Assembly: GCA_009840595.1 (NCBI GenBank)
Contig: VXNK01000045.1
Span: forward strand, 1 to 33,410
DNA: 33,410 nucleotides
Origin: Rhodospirillaceae bacterium
Lineage (GTDB): Bacteria > Pseudomonadota > Alphaproteobacteria > Bin65
Direction of reading: 5' to 3'
Shown piece after piece: positions 2,599-17,104 of this stretch. Below the pieces are notes generated by a model. The model saw nothing but the letters and a program-made list of their open reading frames with translations. It was not told where the DNA came from and made no database searches. Positions within the stretch are counted from its first letter, which is position 1; the number at the start of each line of letters is the position of its first letter. The position numbers were made by a program, and so were the translations under genes.

Positions 2599-3821
2599 TC
2601 AAATGGCGGCCGGGTCTTTGGACAGCGGAATGATGGCGACGCTGTCGCCGGCCGCCGCGGGCGACGCGTGGGGCGGGCGGACGATCAGCGCATCGGCCGC
2701 CGCCAGGCGCGAGAGCATCGAGCTGTCCTGCTTCGCGAACGGCGTCGCGACCGGCCGGCCGGCATCGTCCGCGGAGAGCGTGGCGCGCAGATAATCCTCC
2801 CGCTCGTCGTTGGCTGCGAGATCGGCGCCCAGGATCGCGGTTTCGGTCGCCGGGCCGTCCGCCGGCCGGCCGAGCATGCGCTGGAGCACCGGCGCCATGA
2901 ACATGAGGGCGCAGACCAGCGCCGACACCGGGTTGCCCGGCAGGCCGAGGAACGGCGTCGATGCGCCGTCCCGTTCGAGCGCGCCGAAAATCAGCGGCTT
3001 GCCTGGCCGCATGGCGATCTTCCAGAAATCGACCTTGAGGCCGATCTCGCCGAGCGCCGCCTGAATCAGGTCGTGTTCGCCGACCGAGGCGCCGCCGGTG
3101 GTGACCAGCAGGTCGGCCCGGCCCATGCCGCGGACGGCGGCCTGCAGTGCGGCCGGGTCGTCGCCGGCGATGCCGAGATTCTGCGCCGTGCCGCCATTGC
3201 GCTCGACGAAGGCGGCGAGCGCCCAGCTGTTGGAACTGACGATTCGGTCCGGTCCGACCGGGTCGCCGGGCAGGACGATCTCGTCGCCCGTCGCCAGGAT
3301 CGCCACGACCGGCCTGCGCACCACCGGCAGCCAGGGCGCGTTGACCGCGGCGGCGAGGCCGATGTCGCGCGGCCGGAGCAGCCGGCCGGCGGGCAGCAGC
3401 ACCTCGCCTTCCGAGAAATCGAGCCCGGCCGGGCGGATGTAGCGTCCTTCCGGAACCGGCCCGGCCGCGATGACGGTATCGCCGTCCCGTTCGGCGTTTT
3501 CCTGGATCAGGATCGCGTCCGCGCCGTCCGGCACCGGCCCGCCGGTGAAGATGCGCACCGTCTCGCCGGGGCCGACCGCGCCGCCGAACGGCCGGCCGGC
3601 CGGCGCTTCGCCGATCTGCGTCAGGCGCGCGCCCGGCGCCCGGGTATCGGCGGCGCGCACCGCGTAGCCGTCCATCGCCGACACCGCGACCGGCGGCTGG
3701 GTCAGGCGCGCCGGCACGTCGCGCGCCAGCACCCGCCCGGCGGCGGCGGAAAGCGGCACGATCTCGGCGGGCAGCGGCGCGAACCGGCCGACGATCCGCG
3801 ACCGGGCCTCGGCCACGGAAA

Positions 3822-12669: not shown

Positions 12670-12698
12670 GGGTAGAAACAAATACCCGGTTTCTACCC
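12670..12698 (+). promoter_or_regulatory. Palindromic operator upstream of the first vapB
   Basis: GGGTAGAAAC and GTTTCTACCC form perfect 10-bp arms around 9 bp, ending 13 bp before the ATG. The same arms occur upstream of the second vapB. Type II antitoxins usually bind such palindromes to repress their own operon. Confidence 0.7.
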
Positions 12699-12711
12699 TA
12701 AGGGACCGGAC

Positions 12712-12969
12712 ATGGGCCTCAACATCAAGAACGAAGAGACCTGCGCGCTCGCCCGCGAACTCGCCGACCTGACCGGCGAGACCGTGACCGGCGCGATAAC
12801 CGTTGCCCTGCGCGAACGCCTGGAGCGGGAGAAGCGGGAGCGGGACAAAGAAGCACTGCTTCGGGATGTCCGCGCCATAGCAGAGCGCTGCGCTGCGCGC
12901 ATGGGTCCGGGGCCGTCGTCCACCGAGATCGGCGATTTCCTGTATGACGGGCACGGGTTGCCGAAGTGA
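12712..12969 (+). CDS. VapB-family antitoxin, orphan upstream copy
   Basis: The 85-residue product begins MGLNIKNEETCALARELADL and belongs to the Rv0623-like VapB antitoxins, which have a ribbon-helix-helix-like N-terminus that binds DNA and a C-terminal tail that wraps the toxin (FLYDGHGLPK end). It is a tandem duplicate of the gene 357 bp downstream. Residues 1-45 differ at only two positions, while the C-terminal 40 are only about half identical. No toxin follows: a GTGA start/stop overlap is kept at 12966, but the frame after it closes quickly. It may therefore be a cassette that has lost its vapC. It could still act on a remote toxin or on the neighbouring operator. Confidence 0.85.
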   Translation: MGLNIKNEETCALARELADLTGETVTGAITVALRERLEREKRERDKEALLRDVRAIAERCAARMGPGPSSTEIGDFLYDGHGLPK

Positions 12970-13026
12970 TCGGAACCGGGCGAGGCGGTTGCTGCGCGGG
13001 CGTTGCGCAGACACCTGAACGGCGGT

Positions 13027-13057
13027 AGGGTAGAAGCAGATATCTGATTTCTACCCT
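13027..13057 (+). promoter_or_regulatory. Palindromic operator upstream of the second vapB
   Basis: AGGGTAGAA and TTCTACCCT form the outer arms, and a perfect inner palindrome CAGATATCTG sits at 13037-13046. The outer arms match those of the first vapB operator, which predicts cross-binding by both antitoxins. It ends 11 bp before the start codon. Confidence 0.7.
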
Positions 13058-13068
13058 GGGGATCGTAA

Positions 13069-13326
13069 ATGGGCCTCAACATCAAGAACGAAGAGACCTG
13101 CGCGCTCGCCCGCGAACTGGCCGACCTGACCGGCGAGACCATGACCGGCGCGATAACCGTTGCCCTGAGCGAACGCCTGGAGCGGGAGAAGCGGGAGCGG
13201 GATGCAGAGGCGGAGATTGCGGAAATGCTCGCCTTCGGCGAACGCTGCGCCAAGCGCCTGGGTCCGGGGCCGTCCGCTGTCGAGCACGGCGACTTCCTGT
13301 ACGACGAGCACGGCCTGCCCAGGTGA
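13069..13326 (+). CDS. vapB: VapB-family antitoxin paired with VapC
   Basis: The 85-residue product is an Rv0623-like VapB antitoxin and the downstream copy of a tandem duplication. Its N-terminal 45 residues are nearly the same as in the copy at 12712. The tail (EIAEMLAFGERCAKRLGPGP, then FLYDEHGLPR) differs. The stop overlaps the vapC GTG start in a GTGA, so the two are translationally coupled. It should neutralise the following toxin and repress the operon through the palindrome just upstream. Confidence 0.9.
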   Translation: MGLNIKNEETCALARELADLTGETMTGAITVALSERLEREKRERDAEAEIAEMLAFGERCAKRLGPGPSAVEHGDFLYDEHGLPR

Positions 13327-13733
13327 TTGTCGATACCTCGGCGGTCCTGGCGGTCCTGTTCGGCGAACCGGATCGGCAGCGCTATGCCGCCGCCCTCCAG
13401 ACAGCGCCGCGTCGCCGAATGTCGGTCGCTAACGCGCTCGAAGCGACAATCGTTGCCGAACGTCGCGGCGGTGCGCCGGCTGGGGTCGATCTTGAACTTT
13501 TTTTCGAGCTATGCGGCCGCGCGCGGGGGCCCGTCACGACGGAACAGCTTGCCGCCGCCCGGCGCGCGGGGCGGCGGTTCGGCAGGGGCAACCATCCGGC
13601 CGGGCTGAATTTCGGCGACTGCTTCGCCTACGCCCTCGCCGAGACGACCGGCGAACCGCTGCTCTTCAAGGGCGGCGACTTCGCGCAGACGGACATTCCG
13701 CCGGCGCTGGCGGAAGAGGCGGCGGCGGGGTAG
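13323..13733 (+). CDS. vapC: VapC-type PIN-domain ribonuclease toxin
   Basis: The 136-residue product is a PIN-domain toxin, by family a Mg2+-dependent endoribonuclease that cuts tRNA or rRNA and stops growth when free of antitoxin. The acidic metal-binding residues are in place: Asp4 (MIVDTSAVLAVLFGE), Glu40 (NALEATIVAE), Asp99 (NFGDCFAYALA) and Asp119 (FKGGDFAQTD). Nothing is missing, so it should be active. The start is GTG at 13323, overlapping the antitoxin stop by four bases. No further gene follows on this strand for 1 kb. Confidence 0.93.
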   Translation: MIVDTSAVLAVLFGEPDRQRYAAALQTAPRRRMSVANALEATIVAERRGGAPAGVDLELFFELCGRARGPVTTEQLAAARRAGRRFGRGNHPAGLNFGDCFAYALAETTGEPLLFKGGDFAQTDIPPALAEEAAAG

Positions 13734-16111: not shown

Positions 16112-16501
16112 TCAGACGGTCTGCAGCCCGAGATGGGCCTCGATGACGTCGAAATCCCGGTCGGCATGGAGCAGGCGGTGGCCGTTCTCCAGGCAGAAGG
16201 TCGCGATCAGCATGTCGATCGTCTTGCGCACGGTCACGCCCCGCGCGCGCAGAGTGCGATAGTTGCGGGCGCCGGCGAGCGCGATCTCCCGCCCGACCAT
16301 CGGCGCGAAGTGCAGCGTGTCGAGGGCGTCGCGGGCGCGGCGGGCGTCGCGGCTGCTGCGAAAGCCTTGCAGCACCTCGCACAGGATGAGATCGCCGGTC
16401 AGCACCGGCTCGACGCCGAGAATATCGTCGAGCAGCGCGGTTTCCCGGGTCGCGGCGCCGTTGAAATAGTCGATCCAGACCGAGGAATCGACGACGATCA
16501 C
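16112..16501 (-). CDS. vapC: VapC-type PIN-domain ribonuclease toxin, second locus
   Basis: The 129-residue product is a complete PIN toxin. Acidic residues are Asp5 (MIVVDSSVWIDYFNG), Glu42 (LILCEVLQGF), Asp96 (VRKTIDMLIATF) and Asp114/Asp116 (LLHADRDFDVI). The start is GTG, overlapping the stop of its antitoxin in GTGA. It is unrelated in close sequence to the toxin at 13323, being of the VDSSVWIDYF subgroup. By family it cleaves RNA to arrest growth. The operon lies between two iteron-palindrome elements. Confidence 0.95.
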   Translation of the reverse strand: MIVVDSSVWIDYFNGAATRETALLDDILGVEPVLTGDLILCEVLQGFRSSRDARRARDALDTLHFAPMVGREIALAGARNYRTLRARGVTVRKTIDMLIATFCLENGHRLLHADRDFDVIEAHLGLQTV

Positions 16502-16692
16502 CGGTCCCGCCGCATGTCGTCGAGATTGCCGTCCCAGCGCAGCTTGCCGCGCAGGGCGCGCAGCCGGCCTTGCCGCCGCGTTCTCACCAGCAGGCGCAAC
16601 CCTTCCTCCACGGCGGCCTTCTTCGTCTTGCTGCCGCTCGCCTCCAGGGCTTCCGCCATCAGGTCGTCGTCGATGTCGATATTGGTGCGCAT
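16498..16692 (-). CDS. vapB: VapB-type antitoxin, second locus
   Basis: The 64-residue product begins MRTNIDIDDDLMAEALEASG and is a ribbon-helix-helix VapB. The beta-strand TNIDIDDDLM and helices through KKAAVEEGLRLLV bind DNA, and the basic tail LRGKLRWDGNLDDMR contacts the toxin. The frame stays open 35 codons further upstream, but MRTNIDI is where the family begins and the upstream part covers the operator. The stop overlaps the vapC GTG by four bases. Confidence 0.93.
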   Translation of the reverse strand: MRTNIDIDDDLMAEALEASGSKTKKAAVEEGLRLLVRTRRQGRLRALRGKLRWDGNLDDMRRDR

Positions 16693-16701
16693 GGCTGCTT
16701 T

Positions 16702-16730
16702 ATGTGTATCAATCGGAAAATTATACACAT
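16702..16730 (-). promoter_or_regulatory. Palindromic operator of the second vapBC
   Basis: ATGTGTAT and ATACACAT form perfect 8-bp arms around 13 AT-rich bases, starting 10 bp upstream of the vapB ATG. This position and symmetry suit VapB/VapBC autoregulation. Confidence 0.7.
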
Positions 16731-16768
16731 CGGTGACGCCGCCGGTCAACCTCCGGACTGCCGAAACA

Positions 16769-17104
16769 TGACATATCCTGACATCGCAATCCGTCATCCC
16801 GCCCGACCGGACCGGACCTTCATCCCGACCGACCGGACCGGACCTTCTTCCCGACCGAAGCGCCCCTCACCGTCATTCCGACCGAAGCGCCCCCCGCCGT
16901 CATTCCGACCGAGCGAAGCGAGTGGAGGAATCTCGGCTCGATTTCGACACCGGGAACCCCGGGTCCGGCGACGGGGTTCCTCCCCTTCGACTTCGCTCAG
17001 GGCAGGCTGCTTCGCGGACCGGCGTCCGCTCCGGCCGGAATGACGGGAAAGGGCGAACGGGACGGCGGTATGACAAATCCTGACGAATCATGACATATCC
17101 TGAC
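16769..17104. repeat. Iteron-palindrome element, copy 2 (expanded core)
   Basis: TGAC occurs at 16769 and 16779. Thirteen bases later CGTCAT opens the core (16792). The core closes with ATGACG (17040-17045), and TGAC recurs at 17071, 17081, 17091 and 17101. The right core end shares 23 bp with copy 1 (CCGCTCCGGCCGGAATGACG and on). The core here is about 240 bp longer, containing tandem repeats and words such as GAGCGAAGCGAGTGGAGG and CCTTCGACTTCGCTCAGGG, which resemble common intergenic repeats. Apart from the vapBC operator this fills the 16693-17160 gap. No gene was found in it. Confidence 0.75.
16805..16906. repeat. Nested tandem repeats inside copy 2
   Basis: Units of 22 and 26 bp begin GACCGGACCGGACCTTC or GACCGACCGGACCGG (16805-16852). 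Two 27-bp units follow (16853-16906), each starting GACCGAAGCGCCCC and ending CGTCATTCC. They look like slippage or recombination growth of a dispersed repeat. Confidence 0.6.

Follow-up and report, generated by a model that had tools for sequence, protein, structure and literature searches.

The vapB1-vapB2-vapC locus of the window (the whole stretch of 33,410 nucleotides analysed here, from a Rhodospirillaceae bacterium) is genuine and conserved, and makes an informative variant of a known system. On balance, we lean towards reading it as a VapBC30-like type II cassette that retained a toxin-less upstream antitoxin after its toxin was displaced, with the heads of the two antitoxins homogenised and VapB1 acting as an extra repressor and antidote.

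Anatomy of the locus

The two vapB genes lie head to tail and, as was noticed earlier and is borne out by the gene calls, vapC (13323-13733) is present after the second copy only. The distance of 357 bp first given between the copies holds as start-to-start spacing but not as a gap, the intergenic region being 99 bp. The features are as follows.

12670-12698, + strand: operator 1, GGGTAGAA-N13-TTCTACCC, 13 bp 5' of vapB1
12712-12969, + strand: vapB1, 85 codons, PF07704
12712-12846, + strand: vapB1 head, codons 1-45, homogenised with the vapB2 head
12847-12969, + strand: vapB1 tail, codons 46-85 and stop; toxin-binding half of the upstream type, the same type as G005 vapB
12970-13027, + strand: spacer including the second promoter region; vapC remnant not detected
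13028-13056, + strand: operator 2, arms as in operator 1, core with CAGATATCTG, not conserved
13069-13326, + strand: vapB2, 85 codons, PF07704
13069-13203, + strand: vapB2 head, codons 1-45
13204-13326, + strand: vapB2 tail, codons 46-85 and stop; partner of the vapC downstream
13323-13733, + strand: vapC, GTG start overlapping the vapB2 stop
13323-13526, + strand: vapC 5' part, residues 1-68, variable among congeners
13527-13733, + strand: vapC 3' part, residues 69-136 and stop, conserved among congeners; W83G codon at 13569-13571

Both VapB match PF07704 (PSK_trans_fac) with E values of 3.7e-25 and 7e-25 (89.1 and 88.2 bits, cut-off 28.3), and they are the only PF07704 genes above cut-off in the window's genome (G000). 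The vapC product carries a PIN domain (PF01850, E 5.1e-14). The overlap at 13323-13326 places the antitoxin gene immediately 5' of the toxin gene, the layout of a type II vapBC operon. By eye, VapC has D4, E40, D99 and a nearby C-terminal Asp, which we take to be the acidic PIN active-site residues. Residue 83 is Gly in the window and Trp in 64 of 67 family VapC (the others are one Tyr, one gap and the Gly of the window itself), and this substitution raises doubt about the ribonuclease activity or toxicity of the window's VapC. Residues 59-68 hold a cluster of differences from the congeners; given this cluster and Gly83, the window toxin may be weakened. A CoA-transferase gene lies on one side of the locus and an alpha/beta hydrolase gene on the other. 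An unrelated second vapBC (PF09957 antitoxin, VapC NF047959) lies 2.4 kb downstream at 16112-16797 on the - strand. A decayed vapBC is seen at G000:C8 (L121, L003), where the start of the VapC frame is fused to its own 3' half by an internal deletion.

The arms GGGTAGAA-N13-TTCTACCC match exactly at the two operator positions and nowhere else in the window, with no match in 100 shuffles, and both vapB genes thus have the GGGTAGAA/TTCTACCC operators reported for them. That the matched operators are a special feature did not survive comparison: with at most three mismatches the operator stands upstream of 56 of 86 vapB genes (0 of 1720 shuffles) and is therefore the family norm, and we rejected it as a hallmark of the tandem. 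The predicted operator may serve vapBC autoregulation. The extra CAGATATCTG is indeed present within operator 2, but it is not conserved across copies; the congener at the same site has CAAATATCTG and the core varies in other aligned copies, and a conserved extra palindrome was rejected.

The head and tail mosaic and its recurrence

Residues 1-45 of VapB1 and VapB2 differ at two positions (4/135 nt), the count given in the earlier note. Residues 46-85 differ at 16 positions (36/120 nt); the strong divergence claimed for them is real, and the exact share of 40% (16/40) is slightly below the half first estimated. The description of a common DNA-binding head with distinct tails is therefore correct. 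The contrast is also found at silent sites, with pS of 0.06 in the head and 0.43 in the tail (Fisher p = 7e-4) and dS of 0.06 and 0.64. It follows that protein-level selection alone is insufficient for the likeness of the heads, which we ascribe to homogenisation by recombination; such unequal silent divergence is unexpected by descent alone, so recombination either homogenised the heads or imported the tails. The shared repressor head is thus real as a likeness, but its cause is recombination and not solely selection for a common repressor.

In four-way comparisons of the copies, genome-type and copy-type sites number 7:1 in the head and 0:26 in the tail for G000/G002 (p 1.5e-6), 6:0 and 1:15 for G000/G003 (p 9e-5), and 4:0 and 0:13 for G002/G003 (p 4e-4), with crossed-type sites tallied separately (two in the G002/G003 head). 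Heads cluster by genome and tails by copy in all three comparisons, which is concerted evolution confined to the DNA-binding half. In G003, by comparison with the other genomes, the two tails have traded their final ~18 residues, crossed-type sites making up 5/9 and 8/9 of the informative sites in codons 67-85, and this exchange blurs tail specificity. Trees of the 132- and 120-column pieces fit the mosaic reading, with weakly supported forks. Copy 1 of G002 has a GTG start.

Among the seven genomes of the genus sample (G000-G006), the vapB-vapB-vapC array is found in G000, G002 and G003, at two chromosomal sites. The search for such arrays proposed at the outset has thus been answered within the genus, and the duplication is not confined to a single strain; an assembly artefact or single-strain oddity was rejected on the same three genomes and two sites. 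In G005, vapC comes after a single vapB of the locus type; vapBC in G001 and G006 is only of a more distant kind, and G004 lacks any PF07704 match. The CoA-transferase flank is common to G000 and G003, and the other site to G002 and G005. No clean empty site is definable at the CoA-transferase gene, as homology in G001, G002 and G005 stops 47-58 bp past it, with no further match in the compared stretches.

Beyond the genus the array is rare. PF07704 occurs in 57 of 385 genomes of the class. Two adjacent same-strand matches, in the list read by eye, occur only in G000 and G003, and these 385 genomes hold no other case beyond the genus; G002 is absent from the class genomes listed with a PF07704 match, and G333:C132 is one PF07704 gene in two pieces. 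Of 106 public loci, 80 were kept, and among these tandems occur in L018 and L019, both of the window's genus, and in two Chloroflexi loci, L062 (intact) and L075 (decayed). The heads of L062 differ at 17/120 nt and its tails at 36/120, the heads being less alike than in the window's genus; in the family of L062, PF07704 is found in 5 of 44 genomes and the tandem in one. In L075 a partly deleted vapB and a vapC start remnant (2740-3010) lie upstream of an intact vapBC. No relatives were found in plasmid and viral collections. The vapBC family of the locus is found in MAGs of many phyla, with VapB 51-95% identical in L018-L097 (Gemmatimonadota, Chloroflexi, Acidobacteria, Nitrospirota and others), and this spread suggests that one vapBC cassette was widely transferred among phyla. 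In L049, L053, L035, L061 and L047, vapC is split or truncated by frame breaks and vapB is intact.

Probable exchange of the toxin and its matched antitoxin tail

G002 and G005 are natural alternative alleles at one chromosomal site. They share ~95% identity across the 7.6 kb leading to the vapB1 stop, and the DNA beyond vapC is also common to both. Past the vapB1 stop, G002 continues with the spacer, vapB2 and vapC2, and G005 goes directly into a vapC with a different 5' half. Silent divergence between the two vapC genes is 0.65 over residues 2-68 and 0.04 over residues 69-126; the 5' half of G005 vapC is foreign to the other vapCs and its 3' half matches them. Over six genome pairs the 3' half shows pS of 0.04-0.25, near or below that of the CoA-transferase gene (0.22-0.33, G000 against each congener), and the 5' half 0.58-0.67 in five pairs, the exception being G000/G002 with 0.15. 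Because the vapC 5' half is diverged whereas its 3' half and the vapB head are conserved, the vapB tail and the vapC 5' half appear to be one exchanged unit. The tail of G002 vapB1 is identical to that of G005 vapB at 40 of 40 residues. Most simply, vapB1 can be taken for the antitoxin that belonged to the displaced toxin type. The data also agree with an ancestor that had two full modules and was later reduced along two different paths; none of the genomes examined has the full vapB1-vapC1-vapB2-vapC2 array.

The spacer bears on this history. The AAGTGA/GTGA end of vapB1, taken in the earlier note as the scar of a lost toxin start, does exist, but the DNA downstream resembles vapC no better than shuffled sequence. 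Local and start-anchored alignments detect no vapC remnant in the G000 spacer (its own vapC is matched by 75 of 300 shuffles, G005 vapC by 16 of 300) and no convincing vapC similarity in the G002 and G003 spacers. By the same test, the L062 spacer does keep the scar of a vapC start behind vapB1, with 0 of 300 shuffles scoring as well. As there is no vapC1 remnant in the spacer and no full two-module array, the order of events is not fixed. Likeness between spacers is reached by 1 of 500 shuffles for G000/G003 and 2 of 500 for G000/G002, and moderately supports one probable origin of the vapB1-vapB2 junction; it is carried by two of three comparisons, G002/G003 showing no alignment beyond shuffles (239 of 500). 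A single origin would imply selection on vapB1 while toxin-less.

To relate tail to toxin across the family, we compared 67 non-redundant pairs (83 vapB entries, of which 16 were dropped for length or lack of a full vapC, with the window and G005 pairs added and two identical ones removed). Distances of VapC residues 2-68 correlate at 0.44 with those of the tails and 0.22 with those of the heads; for the whole VapC the values are 0.43 and 0.30 (bootstrap of the difference 0.015-0.28), and for residues 69-127 heads (0.33) slightly exceed tails (0.30). That heads correlate with whole VapC at all (0.30) weighs against the swap reading. At silent codons of 53 loci (26 entries skipped, genus rows left out), the middle, formed by vapB tail and vapC start, is more diverged than the ends (p < 0.01) in 17 of 80 close locus pairs and the reverse holds in none; over all 1378 pairs the counts are 42 and 2. 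The boundaries 45 and 68 were picked on the window's genus, and rotated partitions served as controls: rotation by 30, 53 and 80 codons gives 2, 1 and 0 of the 80 pairs (reverse 0, 1 and 1), and the half turn of 106 codons gives 0 and, as expected, 16 reverse. In distant pairs, the first 10 codons of vapB and codons 81-100 and 111-120 of vapC are also more alike. Part of the contrast is therefore intrinsic, from mild constraint at the ends, and only the excess in close pairs counts.

Maintenance of vapB1 and comparison with known systems

The vapB1 tail is under purifying selection, and vapB1 is therefore maintained. N and S differences between vapB1 tails are 4/88 and 13/32 for G000/G002 (p 4.5e-6), 9/89 and 11/31 for G000/G003 (p 0.0036), and 11/88 and 19/32 for G002/G003 (p 7e-7); none of 5000 neutral simulations of the G000/G002 tail is as conservative. 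Intact, without an adjacent cognate toxin and under selection, vapB1 is an orphan antitoxin. It is improbable that vapB1 is a disappearing gene, still present only because it arose recently and undergoes gene conversion with vapB2. The visible vapC1 scars of the Chloroflexi loci L062 and L075, the latter with vapB1 partly deleted, would agree with such decay, but vapB1 is full length in all three array genomes of the genus, and it is the unconverted tails that are selected.

The earlier note proposed two-input control, in which VapB1 and VapB2 both neutralise one VapC and repress both promoters, and differently regulated or degraded antitoxins gate the toxin. An intact and conserved vapB1 with its own operator, the common head and the recurrence of the array in three genomes would suit it. 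However, 16 of 40 tail residues differ, and the tails remain separate types despite recombination in the heads; the vapB1 tail type occurs with a different vapC 5' half in G005, and this pairing argues against both antitoxins acting on one toxin. The accessible text of a review adds that VapB of Mycobacterium tuberculosis do not neutralise non-cognate VapC, more crosstalk being possible within sub-clusters. We regard two-input control as unlikely, and a retained antitoxin after a toxin swap as better supported. Least probable by far is a regulatory decoy, with VapB1 only adding repressor for the second promoter and its tail serving dimer stability rather than toxin binding: head and operators are common to both copies, but the copy 1 tail of G002 is that of an antitoxin followed by a toxin in G005.

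Under the retained-antitoxin reading, an older vapB1-vapC1 pair would have lost its toxin when a second vapB arrived, bringing its own promoter and another vapC 5' half; the incoming toxin would have retained or picked up the conserved 3' half of the old one, and vapB1 would have been left in place. From then on, recombination between copies would homogenise the heads in each genome and leave the tails distinct. Both VapB are predicted to bind both operators; VapB2 would neutralise the linked VapC, and VapB1 would keep its fit for a VapC1-type toxin, possibly adding repression and also protecting against related cassettes, entering or formerly resident. Toxin-antitoxin families are diverse in specificity, and it is still an open problem how a cell survives the replacement of one matched pair by another. 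The locus suggests a route, with the old antidote kept, the repressor common and the matched middle exchanged. More tentatively, vapB end and vapC start could form a lock-and-key cassette exchanged by recombination between two conserved ends, the repressor head and the 3' half of VapC. The window would then show a swap left incomplete, its retained older antitoxin conferring immunity to the old toxin allele ('antidote memory').

Among the titles found on tandem antitoxins with gene conversion, domain shuffling, mosaic VapBC and cognate specificity, none describes the window's arrangement. The VapBC30 locus of Mycobacterium tuberculosis presumably has a single vapB before vapC; the window's locus would differ in its tandem vapB with head/tail mosaic. 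By sequence, VapBC30 (PDB 4XGQ, 4XGR; see the available part of the review PMC10526153) provides the only solved relatives, with E 3e-8 over 84 residues for VapB and 1.8e-32 over 126 residues for VapC. As far as the accessible portions of these sources go, orphan antitoxins are widely noted, with an anti-addiction role proposed (PMC7354431), solo antitoxins occur in abundance (PMC2701414), and sponge symbionts are enriched in toxin-antitoxin genes, VapBC among them (PMC5649159). The vapB1 gene resembles orphan antitoxins and anti-addiction modules as an intact antitoxin without its own toxin. It differs in lying directly upstream of a paralogous complete pair, with a head common through recombination, and in that the sibling genome G005 shows the pair to which it probably belonged. 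In colicins and bacteriocins, in cassette exchange of polymorphic toxins and in target-domain exchange of HsdS, conserved flanks surround an exchangeable specificity piece. Unlike in those systems, the piece exchanged at the window's locus spans the end of the antitoxin gene and the start of the toxin gene.
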